Source of the DNA: Geodermatophilus sp. YIM 151500
Lineage (GTDB): Bacteria > Actinomycetota > Actinomycetes > Mycobacteriales > Geodermatophilaceae
NCBI RefSeq assembly: GCF_025716945.1
Contig: NZ_JAOVZT010000005.1
Coordinates: 124,001 to 188,000 of the forward strand
Length of the DNA: 64,000 nt
Direction: 5' to 3'
Shown: positions 22,846-38,885 of the stretch, piece after piece
Position numbering within the stretch: the stretch's first letter is position 1
How the letters are laid out: each line of letters opens with the position of its first letter
Position numbers and translations under genes: made by a program
The notes under the pieces: generated by a model
Database searches by the model: none
The model's input: the letters and a program-made list of their open reading frames with translations, nothing else
What the model was told of the DNA's origin: nothing

Positions 22846-24924
<2,079 letters not shown>

Positions 24925-24928
<4 letters not shown>

Positions 24929-25869
24929 CGGGTGCCTCCCAGCGGTGCTGTGTCCGGTGCGGTCGGGGCGGGGGACCCCTCGCCGGGCACGAGGAAGCCG
25001 TTGGCATCCAGCGCGTCGAGCAGCCGGGCGAGGGCGGGGGAGCGGTCCTCGCGGCGCCATGCCAGGGCCAGGTCGACGAACACGTCGTCGGCGAGGGGCA
25101 CGAAGCGGACCCCGTCGACGCGCAGGGCCAGCACGGACTCGGGCAGCAGGGCCACCCCCAGCCCGGCCGCGACCAGCGTGAGCACGATCGAGGTCTCGGC
25201 GGCCTGGTGGGTGCGCCGGGGCAGGAAGCCCTCGGCGAGGCAGGCCTGGATGACGACGGTGTTCACGACGGAGCCCTCGGCGCCGTAGACGACGAAGTCC
25301 TCGTCCCGGAGGTCGGTCAGCCCGACCGGCTCCTCACCGGCGAGCCGATGGCCGCCCGGCGCGACGAGGACCAGCCGCTCCCGGGTGATCAGCCGGGACG
25401 ACAGCCCCGTCCGGCGCAGCGGTGGACGCAGCACGGCCAGGTCGATGCGGTCCTCCTCGAGGGCTGCCTCCTGCGCCGGCGTGAGCAGGTCGGGGTGGAA
25501 GCGCAGCACGAGGCCCGGAACCTCCCGGGCGGCGATCCGGGCCAGGCGGGGCAGCTGGCGGAGCGCCGCCAGCCCGGTCGTCCCGACGCGGAGCAGACCG
25601 CTGCTGCCGGCGCCGATCAGCCCGACCCGGGTCCGCGCGGCCTCGATCGAGTCGAGGATGCGCTCGGCGTCCTGCAGGAGGGCCTCGCCGGCGGCGGTGA
25701 GCTCGACCCGCCGCGTCGTCCGGGTGAACAGGGTGACCCCGAGCTGGTTCTCCAGCTGTCGGATGGCCTGGGACAGCGGGGACTGGGCCATGTGCAGACG
25801 CTCGGCCGCCCGACCGAAGTGACGGGTCCGGGCCACGGTGACGAAGTAGTGCAGTTGGCGGATCTCCAC
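24925..25869 (-). CDS. catR: LysR-type regulator of the catechol genes
   Basis: The 314-residue protein has the LysR N-terminal winged helix (IRQLHYFVTVARTRHFGRAA, then LHMAQSPLSQAIRQLENQLG as recognition helix) and a periplasmic-binding-like effector domain (DLAVLRPPLRRTG and TLVAAGLGVALLPES). CatR and BenM relatives sense muconate or benzoate and activate cat and ben genes. The GTG at 25869 has GGGAGG 4 nt upstream; ATG at 25881 is an alternative. It is divergent from benA with about 245 bp between, and its stop overlaps the catB start. The gene order strongly supports a CatR/BenM role; the inducer is inferred. Confidence 0.85.
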
Positions 25870-26113: not shown

Positions 26114-27490
26114 ATGGCAGTCGACGCCACCCAGCTCCGCAGCGTCCTCGCCGACGCCGTCATCGACGACCCCGAGGCCGGGATCTACCGCGCCAACCGT
26201 CGGATCTTCACCGACGAGGAGATCTTCGAGCTGGAGATGACCCACATCTTCGAGGGCAACTGGGTCTACCTGGCGCACGAGAGCCAGATCCCGAACCCGG
26301 GTGACTACTTCACCACCTACATCGGCCGCCAGCCGGTCGTCATCACGCGGGGCAAGGACGGTGAGCTGCACTGCCTGATCAATGCCTGCGCGCACCGCGG
26401 CTCGATGCTCTGCCGCCGCAAGACCGACAACCGGATGACGCTGACCTGCCCGTTCCACGGCTGGACGTTCCGGAACGACGGCAAGCTGCTCAAGGTCAAG
26501 GACCCGGACGGTGCCGGCTACCCGGAGAGCTTCGCCAAGGACGGCTCCCACGACCTGGTCAAGGTCGCGCGGTTCGACAGCTACCGCGGATTCCTGTTCG
26601 GCAGCGTCAACCCGGACGTGAGCACGCTCACCGAGCACCTCGGTGACACGACCAAGGTCATCGACATGCTGGTCGACCAGTCGCCGGAGGGGTTGGAGGT
26701 GCTGCGTGGCTCGTCCACCTACACCTACGACGGCAACTGGAAGGTCCAGGCCGAGAACGGTGCCGACGGCTACCACGTCAGCGCGACCCACTGGAACTAC
26801 GCGGCCACGACCTCGCGGCGCAGCACCGGCGAGTCGAAGAACACCACCAAGGCGTTGGACGCCGGCGGCTGGGGCAAGTCCGGTGGCGGCTACTGGTCCT
26901 ACCCCAACGGGCACCTGTGCCTGTGGACGTGGGCGGCCAACCCGCAGGACCGGCCGCTGTGGGACCGCATGGACGAGCTCAAGGCCCAGTTCGGCGACGC
27001 CAAGGGCGAGTTCATGGTCAAGGGCTCCCGCAACCTGTGCCTGTACCCGAACGTCTACCTGATGGACCAGTTCAGCACCCAGATCCGGCACTTCCGGCCG
27101 ATCTCGCCCGAGCAGACCGAGGTCACCATCTACTGCATCGCCCCCAAGGGCGAGAGCGCCGAAGCCCGGGAGCACCGGATCCGCCAGTACGAGGACTTCT
27201 TCAACGCCTCGGGCATGGCCACCCCGGACGACCTGGAGGAGTTCCGCTCCTGCCAGCTCACCTTCCGGGCGACCGCAGCCCCGTGGAACGACATGAGCCG
27301 CGGTGCCGAGCACTGGCTCAACGGGCCGGACCCGGTCGCCGCAGCCCTCGGCATGGACGACGTCATCTCCGCGGGGCAGCGCAACGAGGACGAGGGGCTG
27401 TACCCGATCCAGCACGGCTACTGGTTGCAGACCATGCGCGCCGCAGTCGAGAAGCAGACCGCCGCGACCACGAAGGGCACAGACCGATGA
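26114..27490 (+). CDS. benA: Benzoate 1,2-dioxygenase, large (alpha) subunit
   Basis: This 458-residue Rieske oxygenase subunit adds O2 to benzoate, giving the 1,2-cis-dihydrodiol carboxylate. The Rieske cluster ligands are Cys92, His94 (CAHRG) and Cys112, His115 (CPFHGW). The mononuclear iron is bound by His221 and His226 ([11 protein letters not shown]), with the bridging Asp218 between centres. The final Fe-ligand Asp is expected further on. The ATG at 26114 has GGAGG 7 nt upstream. The benB gene overlaps its stop by ATGA. The neighbourhood (benB, benC/D fusion, cat genes, benE) confirms benzoate; toluate is the main alternative substrate. Confidence 0.94.
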
Positions 27491-28032
27491 CCACGACGCA
27501 GAACCCCCTGAACACGGTTGCCGAGGCGCCCGCCGGCGGGAAGCTCATCACCCAAAACATGATCGAGCAGTTCCTCTACCGTGAGGCCCGCTACCTCGAC
27601 GACCGCGAGTTCGAGAAGTGGCTGGAGTGCTACGCCGACGACGTCGTCTTCTGGATGCCGTCGTGGGCCGACGACGACCGGCTCACCGAGGACCCGCAGC
27701 GGGAGATGTCCCTCATCTACTACCCGAACAAGGGGGGCCTCGAGGACCGCGTCTTCCGGATCCGCACCGAGCGCTCGAGTGCGACGTCACTGCCCGAGCC
27801 GCGGACCAGCCACAACATCAGCAACGTGGAGGTCATCGAGCGCCGCGGCGACCTGGTCGACATCCGGTTCAACTGGCACACCATGTACTTCCGGTACAAG
27901 ACCGTCGACCCCTACTACGGGACCTCGTTCTACACGATCGACTTCTCGGGGCCCGCGCCGCTGATCCGGCGCAAGACCGTGGTGCTGAAGAACGACTACA
28001 TCCACCACGTCGTCGACGTCTACCACCTCTGA
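27487..28032 (+). CDS. benB: Benzoate 1,2-dioxygenase, small (beta) subunit
   Basis: The 181-residue protein has the cystatin-like cone fold of ring-hydroxylating dioxygenase beta subunits: [20 protein letters not shown] near the N-terminus, then [12 protein letters not shown], and late strands ending in [12 protein letters not shown]. It packs with BenA as an alpha3beta3 hexamer and has a structural role. The ATG at 27487 overlaps the benA stop (ATGA), implying coupled translation and a fixed subunit ratio. The reductase gene follows 63 bp downstream. Confidence 0.93.
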
Positions 28033-28095
28033 GCAGCGGCTCCTCCAGCCCGTTCCCCCGCAAGCTGCTGTTCCGCCGAGACGACGGAGATCTCC

Positions 28096-30885
28096 ATGGA
28101 CCACCGCGTGGCACTCGCGTTCGAGGACGGGGTCACCCGTTTCATCACCTGCCGGGACGACCAGACCGTCGCCGACGCGTCCTACCGGTCGCGGATCAAC
28201 ATCCCGCTGGACTGCCGGGACGGCGTCTGCGGCACCTGCAAGGCCTTCTGCGAGTCGGGCGAGTTCGACATGGGCGGCTACCTCGAGGACGCGCTGTCGG
28301 ACGACGAGGCCGGCAGCGGGTACGTGCTGACCTGCAGCATGCGGCCGCGCTCGGACCTGGTGCTGCAGATCGCGTCCACCTCGGCGGTGGCCAAGACCAG
28401 CGCCGCCACCCACCGCGGTCGGATCACCGCGCTGGACCGGCTGTCCCCGACGACGGTCGGGCTGGCCGTGGAGATCGACGACCGGGACGCCCTGGCGTTC
28501 CTCCCCGGGCAGTACGTCAACATCGCCGTCCCGGGGACCGAGGAGTCCCGGTCGTACTCCTTCAGCAGCGCTCCGCAGGACGAGGAGCTGACCTTCCTGG
28601 TCAAGCTCACGCCCGGCGGCGTCATGTCCACCTACCTGGAGGAGCGAGCCCGGGTCGGGGACGAGATCACCTTCACCGGTCCGCACGGCAGCTTCTTCCT
28701 GCGCGAGTCCGACGCCCCGCTGCTGCTGCTGGCCGGCGGGACCGGGCTGGCGCCGATCCTGTCCATCCTGCGGACGCTGGAGAGCGACGGCATCGCCAAC
28801 GGCCGGCCGATGCACCTGGTCTACGGGGTCACGACCGACGACGACCTGGTCGAGATGGCGGCCATCGAGCGGCTCGCCGGCGGCATCGAGGGGCTGACCT
28901 GGGACTACTGCGTCGCCGACCCCGCCACCACGGCCCCCAACCAGGGCTACGTCACCGGCCTGTACGGGCCCGAGCACCTGCACGACGGCGGTGCCGCGGT
29001 GTACCTCTGCGGCCCACCGGCCATGGTGGAGGCGGTCCGCAAGCACGTCTCCGGGCTCGGGGTGGCCCCCTCGGGCTTCTACTACGAGAAGTTCGCGCTG
29101 GCCGCGGTCCCGACCGAGGCCGCCGAGGAGGTCGTCGCGCCGGAGCCCGAGGCGGTCGTGCCGGAGGTCGTGCCGGAGGCCGCGCCGCAGCCCGAGGCCG
29201 TCGCCCCCGAGCCGCCGCCGGTCGTCGTCCCGGACACCGTCGCCGAGCTGCTGGCCCTGGGCGGCCGGGAGGGCAGATCCGCCGCCGGGCAGGTCCTGTT
29301 CCCGCCGGTCGAGCTGGGCGCTCTCGGCGCCGACGGCGCCGGACCGCGCTCGGAGTCGGCGGCCGACAAGTGGCGGCTGGCGGGGCAGCAGCTGGGGGAG
29401 CCGACCGCCGCCGGGGACGTCCTGCCGGTGGGCGACGCCGAGGACCTCGTGCCCGCCGTCGGTGCCCGCGCCGTCGCCGGTCAGCAGATGCTGCCCGCGG
29501 TGGAGCTGGAGCAGCTCGTCCCGCCGGCGCCACCGGCGCCACCAGTGCTGGCCGGCCGGCCCGACGCGGAGGCGCAGCCGGCGTCGACCCCCGACGGCCG
29601 CGCCATCACGGCCGACGGGTACGAGATCGGCGAGGAGCACCCGTCGGTGCACGAGTCCGACGCCATCTTCGACGCCCGCCGGGCGTTGGAGCTCGGTGCC
29701 CTGGAGCTCACCATCGGTCGCCTGACGCACCAGCAGCTCATCGGCTACCGGGTGCTGGCCGAGGCCACCGTGCCCTACGTCGAGGGTGACCGGTTCGTCG
29801 ACGCGGCGGCGTACACCGAGACCAACGCCGCCTTCCACGACTACCTGTTCACCCTCACCGGCAACGAGCACCTGCTGCGCGCCTACCAGGCGCTCGGCGT
29901 CAAGGGGCACATGGAGGAGTCGCTGCGCTCGGCCACGTGGGTCCACCCGCGCTGCGCGCAGGACCACCTCGACATCGTCGAGGCCTTCCGGGACGGCGAC
30001 CGCGAGCGGGCCCGGGTGCTCATCACCGAGCACGCGGAGCGGTCGAAGGAGACCACCCGCCGGGCCATGCACGACGTCGCCACGGGACGCCGTCCCCGCT
30101 TCGTCACGCCGGGCCGGTTCGCCGGCCAGGTCGTCCTGGTGACCGGGGCGGGTCAGGGGATCGGCGAGCGCACGGCCCGGCGGATCAGCGCCGAGGGTGG
30201 GACCCTGGTGCTGGCCGACCGCGCCGAGCTGGTCCGCGACCTCGCCCACGAGCTCGGGCAACCGGGCGCCGAGGCGCTCCCCGTCGTCGCCGACCTCGAG
30301 ACGTGGGACGGCGCCAAGTCGGTCGTGGACGCCGCACTGCAGCGGTTCGGCCGCATCGACGTCGCCATCCACACCGTCGGCGGCACGATCTGGGCCAAGC
30401 CGTTCGAGCACTATCCGCCCGACCAGATCCAGGCCGAGGTCAACCGGTCCCTCTGGCCGACGTTGTGGTGCTGCCGTGCCGTCGTGCCGCACATGGTCGA
30501 GCGTGGTCGGGGCACGATCGTCAACGTGTCGTCGGTGGCCACCCGGGGGCTCAACCGCCTGCCGTACGCCGCGGCCAAGGGCGGGGTCAACGCCATCACC
30601 AGCGCGCTGGCCCTGGAGATGGCACCGCACGGCGTGCGTGTCGTGGCCACCGCCCCCGGGGGCACCGACGCGCCCCCGCGCCGTACGCCGCGCGGCCCCG
30701 CGCCGGACTCGGAGCAGGAGAAGGCCTGGTACCGGACGATCGTCGACCAGACGGTCGAGTCCTCGCTGATGAAGCGGTACGGAACCCTGGACGAGCAGGC
30801 CGCGGCCATCACCTTCCTGGCGTCGGAGGAGGCCTCCTACATCACCGGGACCATCCTGCCCGTGGCCGGCGGCGATCTCGGCTGA
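28096..30885 (+). CDS. benC: Trifunctional fusion: BenC reductase - FCD domain - BenD diol dehydrogenase
   Basis: A single uninterrupted frame encodes 929 residues. Residues 1-95 are a plant-type 2Fe-2S ferredoxin (Cys40, Cys45, Cys48, Cys80). Residues 100-330 are the FAD/NAD reductase (RSYSFSSAP at 152-160, GGTGLAPIL at 214-222, LCGPPAMV at 304-311). A Pro/Glu/Ala-rich linker covers about 335-510. Residues 518-662 match an FCD all-helical ligand domain without its GntR DNA-binding part (NAAFHDYLF, QDHLDIVEAFRDGD, ITEHAERS). Residues 674-929 are a short-chain dehydrogenase (TGAGQGIG at 683-690; Ser812 or Ser813, Tyr824 and Lys828), matching BenD, which oxidises the diol to catechol with release of CO2. 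ATG at 28096 follows GGAGA. No separate benD was found, supporting the fusion. Confidence 0.9.
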   Translation: MDHRVALAFEDGVTRFITCRDDQTVADASYRSRINIPLDCRDGVCGTCKAFCESGEFDMGGYLEDALSDDEAGSGYVLTCSMRPRSDLVLQIASTSAVAKTSAATHRGRITALDRLSPTTVGLAVEIDDRDALAFLPGQYVNIAVPGTEESRSYSFSSAPQDEELTFLVKLTPGGVMSTYLEERARVGDEITFTGPHGSFFLRESDAPLLLLAGGTGLAPILSILRTLESDGIANGRPMHLVYGVTTDDDLVEMAAIERLAGGIEGLTWDYCVADPATTAPNQGYVTGLYGPEHLHDGGAAVYLCGPPAMVEAVRKHVSGLGVAPSGFYYEKFALAAVPTEAAEEVVAPEPEAVVPEVVPEAAPQPEAVAPEPPPVVVPDTVAELLALGGREGRSAAGQVLFPPVELGALGADGAGPRSESAADKWRLAGQQLGEPTAAGDVLPVGDAEDLVPAVGARAVAGQQMLPAVELEQLVPPAPPAPPVLAGRPDAEAQPASTPDGRAITADGYEIGEEHPSVHESDAIFDARRALELGALELTIGRLTHQQLIGYRVLAEATVPYVEGDRFVDAAAYTETNAAFHDYLFTLTGNEHLLRAYQALGVKGHMEESLRSATWVHPRCAQDHLDIVEAFRDGDRERARVLITEHAERSKETTRRAMHDVATGRRPRFVTPGRFAGQVVLVTGAGQGIGERTARRISAEGGTLVLADRAELVRDLAHELGQPGAEALPVVADLETWDGAKSVVDAALQRFGRIDVAIHTVGGTIWAKPFEHYPPDQIQAEVNRSLWPTLWCCRAVVPHMVERGRGTIVNVSSVATRGLNRLPYAAAKGGVNAITSALALEMAPHGVRVVATAPGGTDAPPRRTPRGPAPDSEQEKAWYRTIVDQTVESSLMKRYGTLDEQAAAITFLASEEASYITGTILPVAGGDLG

Positions 30886-30948
30886 GACGATCTCGGCCGA
30901 GACGTCAAGCGGGTGGCTCGGACCGGGGAGCACGCCGCCGCCCGGGCC

Positions 30949-30954
30949 TACGGT
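30949..30954 (+). promoter_or_regulatory. Candidate -10 box (TACGGT) for the LuxR regulator gene
   Basis: TACGGT fits TANNNT and stands exactly 6 nt before the GTG at 30961, the leaderless arrangement seen elsewhere in the window. It would give the regulator a promoter separate from the ben operon. Confidence 0.5.
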
Positions 30955-30960
30955 GTCGAC

Positions 30961-33774
30961 GTGAGCCCGCCCGACGAGGACCTCCACGTCGTCGGGCTGA
31001 CCGCCGAGACCACGCAGCTCGAGGCCCTGCTCGACCAGGCCCGGGCAGGCGGGCCGGCGGTCGCCCTCGTCGAGGGCCCGGCCGGGATCGGCAAGACCAC
31101 CCTGCTGCGCCGGTTCCTCCGGCGGCATCCGGAGCTGCCGACGACGACGGCCGCCGGCTTGCCGTGGGAGAACCGCCGGGCCGGTGCGCTAGCCCGGCGG
31201 CTGCTCGACGACGTCCCCCACGACGCCTCGCCCGAGCCGGCCGGTGACGACCCGGTCGACCTCGGCGTCGCGCTCGCCCGGCACTGGGCCGCCCGGGCCG
31301 GGGAGCAGCCGCTTCTCGTCGTCGTCGACGACGCCGACTGCGCGGACCCGGTGTCCCTGCAAGCGATCGGCTCCGCGGTCGCCCGCGTCCGCCGGAACCC
31401 CGTCGTGCTGCTGCTCACCCGTACCACCGGGTGGCCGGAGACCGGTGACCCCGGGGCCGGTGCCGTCCTCGACCGGCTCGCCGCCGTCTCCGTGCCCGTA
31501 CCGCCGCTCGGACCGGCCGAGATCCGTCTGCTCGCCGCGCGGGTGGCGGAAGTCGACCTCCCGGGGCCGGTCGCCCGGCGGCTCTCCGAGCACACGGCCG
31601 GCATCCCGCGTCAGGTCCTCGAGCTGATCCGTGACACGCCCCGGTCCCGCTGGTCGGACCGGCACCTCCGGATGCCGGCGCCGGCCGGCATCCAGCGCCG
31701 CGTGCAGCGGGCGCTCGACCTGTGCTCCCCGGAGGCCCGGGCGCTGGTCCAGGCGGCGGCGGTGCTCGGCCAGGACCCCGTGCTCGCCGACGCCGCGGCC
31801 GTGGCCGGCCTCACCGATCCCATCGCCGCTCTCGAGGAGGCCTGTGCCGCGGACCTTCTGGTCATCGCTGCCGGCCACGGCCTGGACGCGCTCGCCTTCC
31901 CGGCGCGGCTCGTCCGCACCGCCGTCCAGGGGACCCTGTCCCCGCAGGCACGGCACGATCTGCACCTGCGAGCGGCAGCCGTGGTCACGGACGACACCGA
32001 GCGCCTCCGCCACCGGGTCGAGGCGGCACCCCTCCCGGACGCCGACCTCGCCGACGAGCTGGTGGAGCTGGCGCGGCGCAAGGCCGACGAGGGGGCGTGG
32101 GCGGTCGTCGCCCGCACACTCGTCGACGCCAGCCGGATCAGCCCTACCCGGGTCGTCCGGGAGGACCGCCTCATCGAGGCTGTCGACGCGCTGGCCGGCG
32201 CCGGCCTCATCGGTCAGGCCGTCGACGCCCTCCCCGAGGTGGAGGCGCTGCCCGCCGGTCCCCACCGGGACGCCGTCCTGGCACACGTCGCCATCCAGCG
32301 GGGCCGCCGGACCGAGGCCGCCATCCACCTCGACGCCGCCTGGCGCCGACGCGGCCCGGACCGGCGCGCCGCCGCGGTCGTGTGCCAACGGCACGTGCTG
32401 CACGCCCTGGCCGACTGGGACGGGGAGGCGTTGGTCCAGTGGGCCGGCCGGGCGGTCGAGCACGCCGAGCCCGGTACGCCCGCGGCGGTGGAGTCACGTG
32501 CCATCGTCGGCCTCGGGCATGCCGCCCGCGGCGACGTGGCCGCGGCGTTCACCGCGTACCGGCACGCCGTGGCCGAGAGCCCGACCGGACCCCAGCACCA
32601 GCGGGCGCGCATGGGCCTGGGCTGGCTGTCCCTCGCCCAGGACGATCCCGAGGCCGCGCGGCGCGAGCTGGAATTCGCCGTTCCCACCGCCCGGCAGGCC
32701 GGCTCCAACCGCATCTCGCTGTGGGCACTGGTGTGGCTGGCCCGCACCCGCGTCGCGCTGGGGGACTGGCCCGGGGCCCTGGACGCGGTCGCGGAGGGGG
32801 AGGCGCTGCTCGGCACCACCGGGCTGGACCTGCTGCGGCCCCTCGTCCACTGGACCGGCGCGCAGATCCGGGCGCTGTGCGGTGAGCCGGAGGCGGCGGA
32901 ACGGCACCTGCGGCTGGGCGGCGCGGGCGAGCAGGACTACACGGTCATGACCGTGCCCGCGTTGCTCGCGCGGGCGCATGCCGCCGAGGCGGCGTCGGAC
33001 CATCCCGCCGTCGTCCGTCACCTTGCCCCGCTCACCACCCGGATGCCGCGAGGTGGGCTCGACGAACCCGGCTTCTGGCCCTGGCACGAGGTCTACGCCG
33101 AGGCCCTCGTCGCCACCGACCGGCTCCTCGAGGCGGAGGAGTTCCTCGCTCCGGTCGAGGCGGTGGCGCAGCTCCGGGGGCACCGCTCGGCGAGCGCCCG
33201 GCTCGGCTACGTCCGTGGCCGGCTGCTGGCCGCACGGGGTGACATCGCGGGCGCGGAGGCGGTCTTCGAGGAGGCGAGGTCCCGGCTGGCGGAGCTGCCG
33301 CTGCCGTACGACCGGGCGCGCGGGGACTTCGTCCATGGCCTCACCTTGCGTCGGGCGGGGCGGCGCCGGGACGCCGCCGCCCTGCTCACCACGGCACGGC
33401 AGGTCTTCGCCGCGCTGGGCGCGCAGGTCTACGTCGAGCGCTGCGATCGCGAGCTCAAGACGGGCCGTCCCGCACTACGGGGAACGGACGCCGGCGCGCA
33501 CGGCCTCACCGAGCAGGAGCGGAGCGTCGCCGAGCTCGTCGCAACGGGCCTGACCAACAAGGAGGTGGCTGCGTCGATGCTGCTGTCGGTCAAGACCGTC
33601 CAGTTCCACCTCACCCGTGTCTACACCAAGCTCGGGGTCCGGTCCCGCTCCGAGCTCGCCGCGCGCTTCTCCCGCGAAGCCGCTCTCCGTGGGGACGGAG
33701 GCCGCGGCCGGGGGGCCGGTGCGGTGCCCGGCGGTGACGACCGGGGCGCCCGGCCCGCCGCACGGCGCGGCTGA
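30961..33774 (+). CDS. Large ATP-binding LuxR (LAL/MalT-like) transcriptional regulator
   Basis: The protein has about 937 residues. It has an N-terminal ATPase with Walker A GPAGIGKTT (39-47) and Walker B PLLVVVDDAD (117-126). A long helical repeat region follows (TPR-like, about 300-820). The C-terminal LuxR DNA-binding domain has LTEQERSVAELVATGLTNKE and LLSVKTVQFHLTRVYTKLG. LAL proteins are usually activators controlled by ligand and nucleotide. The GTG at 30961 fits a leaderless start; a GTG at 30913 is also possible. It lies right after the benC/D fusion on the same strand and faces catC, so it may control the second half of the cluster. A decayed copy of its C-terminus lies at 38930-39330. 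Confidence 0.88.
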   Translation: MSPPDEDLHVVGLTAETTQLEALLDQARAGGPAVALVEGPAGIGKTTLLRRFLRRHPELPTTTAAGLPWENRRAGALARRLLDDVPHDASPEPAGDDPVDLGVALARHWAARAGEQPLLVVVDDADCADPVSLQAIGSAVARVRRNPVVLLLTRTTGWPETGDPGAGAVLDRLAAVSVPVPPLGPAEIRLLAARVAEVDLPGPVARRLSEHTAGIPRQVLELIRDTPRSRWSDRHLRMPAPAGIQRRVQRALDLCSPEARALVQAAAVLGQDPVLADAAAVAGLTDPIAALEEACAADLLVIAAGHGLDALAFPARLVRTAVQGTLSPQARHDLHLRAAAVVTDDTERLRHRVEAAPLPDADLADELVELARRKADEGAWAVVARTLVDASRISPTRVVREDRLIEAVDALAGAGLIGQAVDALPEVEALPAGPHRDAVLAHVAIQRGRRTEAAIHLDAAWRRRGPDRRAAAVVCQRHVLHALADWDGEALVQWAGRAVEHAEPGTPAAVESRAIVGLGHAARGDVAAAFTAYRHAVAESPTGPQHQRARMGLGWLSLAQDDPEAARRELEFAVPTARQAGSNRISLWALVWLARTRVALGDWPGALDAVAEGEALLGTTGLDLLRPLVHWTGAQIRALCGEPEAAERHLRLGGAGEQDYTVMTVPALLARAHAAEAASDHPAVVRHLAPLTTRMPRGGLDEPGFWPWHEVYAEALVATDRLLEAEEFLAPVEAVAQLRGHRSASARLGYVRGRLLAARGDIAGAEAVFEEARSRLAELPLPYDRARGDFVHGLTLRRAGRRRDAAALLTTARQVFAALGAQVYVERCDRELKTGRPALRGTDAGAHGLTEQERSVAELVATGLTNKEVAASMLLSVKTVQFHLTRVYTKLGVRSRSELAARFSREAALRGDGGRGRGAGAVPGGDDRGARPAARRG

Positions 33775-34299: not shown

Positions 34300-35557
<1,258 letters not shown>

Positions 35558-37583: not shown

Positions 37584-38885
37584 ATGAGACCTCAGCGCGC
37601 CGATGGGAACGCCCAGACCGCATCGGCGGTCCACGAGCACCTGTTCGAACGACCCGTCCGGCCCCTGCCGGGCCCGCGCCGCCTGCTGCGGGACGCAGGA
37701 GGTGTCCACGCCGCCAACGGCCTCATCGGACTGGTCTTCGCGGCCACCGGCCCGGTCGCGGTGATCCTGGCGGTGGGCGCACAGGGCGGGCTGTCCCAGG
37801 AGGAGCTGGCCTCGTGGATCTTCGGCGCCTTCTTCCTCAACGGCGTCCTCACGGTCGTGGCCTGCTGGCTCTACCGGCAGCCGTTGGCCTTCTTCTGGAC
37901 GATCCCGGGCACCGTGCTCGTCGGACCCGCGCTGACGCACCTCGCCTGGGGCCAGGTGGTCGGGGCCTTCTTCCTCACGGGTGTGCTGGTCCTGCTCCTC
38001 GGACTGACCGGCTGGGTCCGGCGGGCCATGGCCGTCGTCCCGATGCCCATCGTGATGGCCATGGTCGCCGGTGTGTTCCTGCGCTTCGGCGTGGACCTCG
38101 TGCGTTCGCTGCGCGAGGACGTCGCGATCACCGCGCCGATGATCGTGACGTTCCTGGCGCTCAGTGCGCTCCCCGGGCTCGGGCGCCGCGTGCCCCCGGT
38201 CCTCGGGGCGCTGGCCGTCGGCGCGGTCGCCGTGGGGTTGTCGGGTCGGTTCCGACCCTCGGCGTCCGGGACCGAGTGGTTCGCCGCGCCGGTGGTGCAG
38301 GTGCCGCAGTGGTCGGTGCAGGCCGCGCTGGAACTCGTCGTCCCCCTGGCCATCACGGTGCTGGTGGTCCAGAACGGTCAGGGTGTCGCAGTGCTGCGCG
38401 CGGCCGGGCACGAGCCGCCGGTCAACACCGTCACCATCGCCTGCGGCGCGTGGTCGCTGCTGACCGCCACGGTCGGCACGGTGTCCACCTGTCTGACAGG
38501 TCCGACGAACGCGTTGCTGTCGGCATCCGGCGCGCGGTCCCGGCAGTACACCGCCGGCATCGTCTGCGGCCTGCTGGCGATGGTCTTCGGCCTCCTCGCG
38601 CCGCTGGTCACCGGCGTGATGCTGGCCACACCGGTCGCCTTCGTCGCCACTCTCGGCGGGCTGGCCATGCTGCGGGTCCTGCAGGCGGCCTTCGTCACGG
38701 CGTTCAGCACGCACTTCACCCTCGGGGCCCTCGTCACCTTCGTGGTGACCGTCTCCGACGTGTCGGCGTGGAACGTCGGCGCTCCGTTCTGGGGACTGCT
38801 CGCCGGGCTCGCCGTGTCCTGGTTGCTCGAGCGTCCGGACCACTCCGACCGGGGCTCCGTCGACCGCAGCGCTCCCGGCCGGTGA
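37584..38885 (+). CDS. benE: Benzoate/H+ symporter BenE
   Basis: The 433-residue membrane protein has about 12 spans and the BenE pattern: LVFAATGPVAVILAVG, WIFGAFFLNGVLTVVACWLY, FFWTIPGTVLVGPAL, VVPMPIVMAMVAGVFLRFG, and the late VSTCLTGPTNALLSASGAR. BenE carriers import benzoate with protons and have an internal repeat related to the UraA fold. ATG at 37584 has GGAACGGAG upstream. It is the third uptake gene in the cluster, after two AAHS carriers. It is followed directly by the decayed LuxR copy. Confidence 0.92.
   Translation: MRPQRADGNAQTASAVHEHLFERPVRPLPGPRRLLRDAGGVHAANGLIGLVFAATGPVAVILAVGAQGGLSQEELASWIFGAFFLNGVLTVVACWLYRQPLAFFWTIPGTVLVGPALTHLAWGQVVGAFFLTGVLVLLLGLTGWVRRAMAVVPMPIVMAMVAGVFLRFGVDLVRSLREDVAITAPMIVTFLALSALPGLGRRVPPVLGALAVGAVAVGLSGRFRPSASGTEWFAAPVVQVPQWSVQAALELVVPLAITVLVVQNGQGVAVLRAAGHEPPVNTVTIACGAWSLLTATVGTVSTCLTGPTNALLSASGARSRQYTAGIVCGLLAMVFGLLAPLVTGVMLATPVAFVATLGGLAMLRVLQAAFVTAFSTHFTLGALVTFVVTVSDVSAWNVGAPFWGLLAGLAVSWLLERPDHSDRGSVDRSAPGR

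Follow-up and report, generated by a model that had tools for sequence, protein, structure and literature searches.

Why would the reductase of a benzoate dioxygenase carry, in one polypeptide, both an effector domain of the kind found in transcription factors and the enzyme for the next step of the pathway? The question is raised by an ORF in a 64,000-nucleotide stretch of DNA from Geodermatophilus sp. YIM 151500, the whole of which is referred to here as the window. The initial annotation had described one 929-residue frame with ferredoxin, FAD/NAD, FCD and SDR domains and their key residues, and this description is confirmed by Pfam and NCBIfam searches and by an alignment of 58 homologues. 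The ORF begins with ATG, and its 929 codons are open with no internal stops (Table 1).

Pfam locates Fer2 at residues 10-84 of the chain, FAD_binding_6 at 110-200, NAD_binding_1 at 211-316, FCD (PF07729; 57 bits against a gathering cut-off of 24.3) at 524-648 and adh_short at 678-860. The same search finds no GntR helix-turn-helix in the 929 residues. Because its FCD is preceded by a reductase and lacks a winged helix-turn-helix, the fused protein is not a regulator of the GntR/FCD family.

The two enzymatic parts score 468.6 bits (BenC, NCBIfam equivalog NF040810, cut-off 430) and 422.4 bits (BenD, NF040811, cut-off 380). Residues invariant among the 58 homologues include the Fe-S cysteines C40, C45, C48 and C80, the FAD motif R152/Y154/S155 and the NAD motif G215-T216-G217 of BenC, as well as the SDR glycine motif T683-G684...G688-G690, the catalytic Y824/K828 and the NAD-type acidic residue D708 of BenD. 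The solved chain nearest to the BenC part is 1krh, a benzoate dioxygenase reductase (E 1.3e-96). On the strength of its equivalog score, its motifs and the adjacency of benA and benB, the BenC part is assigned as a benzoate 1,2-dioxygenase reductase, and equivalog score and SDR motifs likewise assign the BenD part as a benzoate cis-diol dehydrogenase. An AlphaFold model of the fused chain (pTM 0.47) leaves the relative orientation of the domains unfixed.

The genes benA and benB lie directly upstream of the fused ORF, with catA-like, catB-like and LysR-type genes divergent from them and with genes for a BenE transporter and a second intradiol dioxygenase nearby. In every one of 80 related loci, the best of 176 FCD relatives, BenA and BenB likewise adjoin the fused gene. 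A 1113-aa frame on the minus strand (27787-31128) was taken to be the usual shadow ORF of a GC-rich region, this stretch being 64-81% GC.

Table 1. Features of the fused ORF and neighbouring genes (positions in the window)
Feature	Position	Strand	Evidence
catA-like catechol 1,2-dioxygenase	22846..23694	-	Dioxygenase_N + Dioxygenase_C
catB-like muconate cycloisomerase	23825..25060	-	MR_MLE_N + MR_MLE_C
Divergent LysR-type regulator, start approximate	24925..25869	-	LysR-family models
benA, benzoate 1,2-dioxygenase large subunit, start approximate	26114..27490	+	TIGR03229, 802 bits vs cut-off 781
benB, benzoate 1,2-dioxygenase small subunit, start approximate	27562..28032	+	TIGR03232, 269 bits vs cut-off 226
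BenC-linker-FCD-BenD ORF	28096..30885 (stop included)	+	929 aa, Pfam and NCBIfam matches
BenC part, residues 3-334, [2Fe-2S] ferredoxin, FAD and NADH domains	28102..29097	+	NF040810
Variable low-confidence linker, residues 335-508, three R-x-[IVL]-A-G-Q copies	29098..29619	+	Conservation, shuffling, AlphaFold
Linker motif copy 1, R394-Q399, RSAAGQ	29275..29292	+	R394, G398, Q399 conserved 91, 95, 86%
Linker motif copy 2, W426-Q431, WRLAGQ	29371..29388	+	G430, Q431 conserved 91%
Linker motif copy 3, R458-Q463, RAVAGQ	29467..29484	+	R458, G462, Q463 conserved 93, 90, 95%
FCD domain with conserved N-terminal YEIGEEHPSVHESD, residues 509-660	29620..30075	+	PF07729, Foldseek, dN/dS
Predicted FCD metal ligands N577, H581, H624, H646 (span)	29824..30033	+	Invariant spacing, Atu1419 match
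BenD part, residues 674-929, NAD-dependent cis-diol dehydrogenase, SDR family	30115..30882	+	NF040811
Large AAA/LuxR-type regulator, directly downstream	30913..33774	+	PF13191 + PF00196

Distribution and origin of the fusion

Strong matches to the fused protein occur in 13 of 115 genomes of the family, the window's own included, and all 13 carry the full-length fusion; the 12 other examples are 73-91% identical to it. A separate draw of 40 relatives yielded no fusion besides the window's own, and thus the ben operon appears to be patchy within the family. When sampling was extended to the order, all four genomes with a ben-type match, the window's own aside, were found to carry the fusion. Named genomes were also scanned with the FCD as query, which returned 176 relatives, and the best 80 of these were analysed. 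BenC, FCD and BenD share a single frame in 80 of these 80, which come from Geodermatophilus, Blastococcus, Modestobacter, Pseudonocardia, Saccharopolyspora, Amycolatopsis, Prauserella, Gordonia, Williamsia, Rhodococcus, Mycobacterium and relatives, Nocardioides, Arsenicicoccus and Kitasatospora. The presence of the fusion in 12 further genomes of the family, in other families of the order and in 80 named loci excludes an artefactual join, and with it the concern that a sequencing error hides a stop or start between the domains.

Among the actinobacterial relatives recovered, BenC usually takes the fused form; because the scan selects for FCD relatives, it carries little information on how often the FCD is absent. 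The fusion is thus no rarity, since each of the 80 nearest named relatives shows the same architecture. It is also not new, since a benC-benD fusion with an FCD was described in 2019 for the benABCD operon of Gordonia alkanivorans YC-RL2 (PMC6362181). That report states the fusion only, giving no distribution, pocket, linker motif or function. A toluene study in Rhodococcus describes the product of benC as an FCD domain-containing protein and lists benD as an additional gene (PMC11858498). Ligand, metal or kinetic data, or other functional work, on any BenC-FCD protein were not found in the open literature. Automatic annotation can hide such fusions: an 861-aa protein from Tsukamurella and a 929-aa protein from Paraburkholderia are both labelled only 'BenC'.

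Other arrangements were recovered as well. One actinobacterial family (f18) has eight loci in which a BenC-FCD gene of about 520-580 codons lies beside a separate benD, and five loci (L120-L124) in which BenC lacks the FCD. In several of the split loci of this family, the end of benC and the beginning of benD share 1 or 4 bases, which offers a natural route to fusion, and the fusion may be only a small step from such translational coupling. On plasmids and chromids of Paraburkholderia, five records (including WP_310819464.1) encode BenC-FCD joined to a cytochrome P450. The protein is 929 aa long in the two records that were analysed over their full length, it is annotated as benC in RefSeq, and its P450 part has the heme-Cys motif FGNGMHKCLG and the I-helix motif AGHDT. 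Among 198 genomes of the phylum, the nearest other FCD belongs to a protein composed of a flavin reductase, a GntR-type helix-turn-helix and an FCD, whose gene adjoins one for an HpaB-like monooxygenase that does not reach the cut-off of the HpaB model. Thus, as the split BenC-FCD, the P450 fusion and the flavin reductase protein show, the FCD travels with the reductase and not with BenD.

In a tree of BenC, the fused proteins form one clade (SH-aLRT 100), and multiple independent fusions are rejected on this basis. The BenD tree requires two changes, a pattern that we read as exchange of the BenD part between fused genes and not as new fusions. The cases concern Pseudonocardia (L071 and L099) and Modestobacter (L034), together with two BenDs of family f18 (L119 and L123) that fall inside the fused group.

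The FCD pocket and the linker

The FCD is the best conserved portion of the chain. Its mean column conservation among the 58 homologues is 0.85, compared with 0.79 for BenC, 0.80 for BenD and 0.34 for the linker, and its dN/dS of about 0.11 (11 pairs) is the lowest of the four, followed by BenD (0.13), BenC (0.17) and the linker (about 0.47). The domain is under strong purifying selection, and this value of dN/dS rules out a vestigial FCD. The conserved block begins at Y509, ahead of the bounds that Pfam assigns.

Within the aligned homologues, N577, H581, H624 and H646 are invariant. Their spacing (N-x3-H, then His at +43 and +65) is the same in the fused, split and P450-linked BenC-type FCDs examined, with one split row whose aligned segment stops short of the last His. 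These residues match the zinc ligands Asn137, His141, His192 and His214 of the VanR-type regulator Atu1419, where bound citrate also contacts Arg86 and Tyr133 (PMC7797058). Judged from spacing and from the ends of the profile alignment, R528 and Y573 of the window's FCD correspond to these two positions, and both are conserved along with the metal quartet.

Structural searches agree with this assignment. The best solved matches of the FCD in Foldseek are Atu1419 (6z74) and the 2-hydroxyglutarate sensor DhdR (9jpl), each with a probability of 1.00 and TM-scores of about 0.6. A narrow FCD sequence profile finds no solved relatives at E 0.01, and a broader profile matches solved DhdR best (E 1e-4), consistent with weak sequence similarity. 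The window's FCD thus retains the complete predicted metal and carboxylate pocket of VanR-type regulators. The initial annotation had named two observations that could undo its interpretation, a hidden interruption of the frame and an FCD incapable of binding either ligand or metal. Neither is borne out at the level of sequence, because the frame contains no hidden stop and the residues of the pocket are complete.

A linker of about 170 residues between BenC and the FCD was missing from the initial annotation. Repeated along it, at a spacing of about 28-33 residues, is a motif whose extended form reads R-x-[IVL]-A-G-Q-x-[hydrophobic]-[FLW]-P. The 58 linkers contain 97 strict copies, compared with 0.22 expected after shuffling, and every one of them (58 of 58) has at least one loose copy. 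Of the three copies in the window's linker, one is strict (RAVAGQ) and the other two are variants (RSAAGQ and WRLAGQ). AlphaFold assigns most of the linker a pLDDT below 50 and places short EE--EE elements at the motifs; with pLDDT near 50 at these strand pairs, we claim no structure for them. The motif is absent from the split BenC-FCD and BenC-FCD-P450 proteins, and a search elsewhere in nine genomes gave no significant E-value (best non-self match 0.01). Within these comparisons a general tag is rejected, and the motif is private to the fused form. The linker would be a flexible tether, and our guess is that it docks a partner, which might be BenAB.

New in this analysis are the predicted pocket in the FCD and the strong purifying selection on this domain, its reductase-linked distribution, including the P450 fusion, and the private linker motif.

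Proposed function and alternatives

What is observed for the fused protein is its domain order, its distribution, the selection on it, the intact pocket and the private motif; from these we infer metal and ligand binding, gating and docking, and any channelling would be of the same standing. The reading that we prefer, to which we give about an even chance, is that the chain is a bifunctional NADH-recycling enzyme whose FCD serves as a metal-dependent carboxylate sensor that gates the reductase. The BenC part would pass electrons from NADH through FAD and the [2Fe-2S] cluster to BenAB, and the BenD part would convert the diol to catechol and return NADH. Since BenC spends NADH and BenD returns it, the chain would be redox-neutral per benzoate. 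The FCD would be a co-opted GntR effector domain that lacks the DNA-binding part. Its most likely ligands are a divalent metal and, held by that metal, an aromatic or diene carboxylate such as benzoate, the cis-diol or muconate. Self-association is usual for FCDs, and ligand binding together with self-association might switch or position the reductase such that NADH is consumed solely in the presence of substrate. Of the earlier interpretation, the suggested effector-sensor role of the FCD appears to be the best-supported part.

Consistent with gating, both halves exceed their equivalog cut-offs, keep their catalytic residues and sit in a benAB/cat cluster. Moreover, the FCD accompanies the reductase whether it is followed by nothing, by BenD or by a P450, and a related FCD occurs on another class of reductase, which argues for a function in electron delivery more than in diol transfer. 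Against gating is the existence of actinobacterial BenC proteins that lack the domain. BenC also functions without an FCD in proteobacteria, and electron transfer therefore does not depend on this domain. The weak sequence resemblance of the window's FCD to solved FCDs, its moderate TM-scores in Foldseek, the Asn among its predicted metal ligands, the loosely placed domains of the AlphaFold model and the unrelated nature of the domain added to reductase C1 (see below) count on the same side.

The strongest competitor, which we consider possible but clearly less probable, is that the FCD acts solely as a dimerising scaffold that sets the oligomeric state and the spacing between the reductase and its partner, with a structural metal and no gating. 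The FCD of Atu1419 takes part in oligomer contacts, and its zinc is structural as well as regulatory (PMC7797058). The FCD of the fusions, moreover, always lies between the reductase and the next part, BenD or P450. However, the conservation of R528 and Y573 with the quartet would be needless for a purely structural metal site. A parallel for gating exists in C1, the reductase of p-hydroxyphenylacetate 3-hydroxylase, which is reported to need substrate for effective catalysis and to have an autoinhibitory C-terminal domain (papers cited in PMC6165268). Between the two readings, each of which we infer, substrate gating is favoured because of this analogy and of the distribution of the FCD.

The initial annotation proposed that the fusion serves mainly to channel the cis-diol from BenC/BenAB to BenD and to recycle NADH locally. 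We find this unlikely as the main purpose. Its recycling component follows from the established stoichiometry, in which NADH used by BenC is remade by BenD, but NADH is soluble and a fusion is not needed to recycle it. Retention of the fusion, once formed, across a wide range of genera speaks for channelling, whereas BenAB, which makes the diol, lies outside the fused chain. The overlapping split genes further indicate that the fusion may be a small step, and the exchange of the BenD part between fused genes suggests that this part is not tightly co-adapted. As a reason for the FCD, channelling is weakened by the occurrence of this domain on BenC with a separate benD and on a P450-fused reductase without BenD.

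We regard as very improbable a trigger-enzyme role, in which the FCD would signal flux through the pathway to the operon's LysR or AAA/LuxR regulator. The AAA/LuxR-type gene directly downstream has a homologue in 73 of 80 related loci, and a LysR-type gene is likewise present in 73 of 80 (best 80 of 176); however, the BenC-FCD-P450 loci have an AraC-type neighbour instead. Neither an artefact of assembly or sequencing nor a vestigial FCD has more than a negligible chance of being correct, given the recurrence of the fusion and the selection on its FCD.

If the FCD does gate the reductase, then a redox enzyme has acquired its allosteric switch by reuse of a transcription-factor effector domain, and that domain could serve as a module for building substrate-gated oxygenases. 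The parts most worth following are the FCD pocket, its reductase-linked distribution and the linker motif.

Comparison with known systems

In many soil actinobacteria, the usual benzoate reductase departs from the textbook BenC in carrying an intact predicted sensor pocket as well as the enzyme for the following step. Classical BenC (1krh) and BenD are equivalogs of the window's parts and have the same Fe-S, FAD, NADH and SDR residues. However, each is a chain of its own, about 340 and 260 aa long respectively, and neither has an FCD, as in Pseudomonas (locus L128). Gordonia alkanivorans YC-RL2 resembles the window in having benC and benD as one gene with an FCD in a benAB operon, and the BenC-FCD-BenD architecture of strain NBRC 16433 (locus L087) is identical to the window's.

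Atu1419 and DhdR share the fold of the window's FCD. VanR-type FCDs also have the metal quartet and the carboxylate-contacting Arg and Tyr, but they are attached to a DNA-binding domain, whereas the window's FCD is attached to an oxygenase reductase and has no helix-turn-helix. One predicted metal ligand in the window is Asn rather than Asp, and Atu1419, which binds zinc, likewise has Asn. The Paraburkholderia proteins resemble the window in that a BenC-type reductase is followed by a homologous FCD (44% identity). They differ in that a P450 replaces BenD, the linker is short and lacks the AGQ motif, and there is no adjoining benAB.

A wider proposal, which we offer tentatively and consider less probable than gating in the ben enzyme itself, is that this metal-binding FCD lineage may be a plug-in, substrate-operated switch on the NADH reductases of unrelated oxygenases (Rieske dioxygenase, P450 and flavin monooxygenase). 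The ben enzyme would be its most widespread form, and the AGQ linker would be a multivalent tether that docks the oxygenase.

The nearest functional parallel is C1 from Acinetobacter baumannii (PDB 5zc2), which was matched over its flavin-reductase part. It too is an NADH reductase that serves an aromatic oxygenase and bears an extra domain at its C terminus, and the architecture of BenC-FCD is analogous. Unlike BenC, C1 is a flavin reductase and not Rieske-type, and its added domain, which is MarR-like, is unrelated to the FCD.

FCD domains joined to other proteins

The BenC-FCD-P450 chain. In Paraburkholderia, a BenC-type reductase, an FCD domain and a cytochrome P450 form a single chain of about 929 residues, which is apparently a self-sufficient P450. 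RefSeq names this chain benC, and in an annotated record its gene is surrounded by genes for an FAD-dependent oxidoreductase, an SDR protein and a helix-turn-helix regulator. We found no paper on this arrangement.

The flavin reductase-GntR HTH-FCD protein. This protein carries the closest non-BenC FCD in the phylum sample, and its gene adjoins an HpaB-like monooxygenase gene.

Linker and BenD portion of the fusion

The linker between BenC and FCD contains a repeated R-x-[IVL]-A-G-Q motif that is periodic and conserved in all fused homologues examined. Two Pseudonocardia loci (L071, L099) and one of Modestobacter (L034) seem to have kept BenC-FCD but to have swapped the BenD portion of the fused gene across lineages. 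The fusion also occurs on a Tsukamurella plasmid, where it is annotated as BenC only, and therefore the operon would seem to lack benD.

Features of the window and of related loci
Feature	Location	Strand	Remarks
Linker repeat	window 29275-29484		
AAA/LuxR-type regulator, large	window 30913-33774		directly 3' of fused gene
Second intradiol dioxygenase, catA-like	window 34300-35397	-	close to cluster
BenE benzoate transporter	window 37584-38885	+	
BenC-FCD-P450	L125:2987-5776, L127:2939-5728, L134		NZ_CP134198.1, NC_010625.1, NZ_CP012748.1
BenC-FCD-P450, further Paraburkholderia records			NZ_CP024940.1, NZ_AP023181.1
Flavin reductase-GntR HTH-FCD	L133/L136, G518 C1 about 1884140		~393 aa
Tsukamurella plasmid fusion	L126:3663-6245		NZ_LR134459.1

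Downstream regulator

The AAA/LuxR-type regulator is present at 73 of the 80 related loci (the best 80 of 176 FCD relatives) and is a possible second regulator of the ben genes. It is also noted, as R2, in the report on the Gordonia alkanivorans YC-RL2 fusion (PMC6362181).
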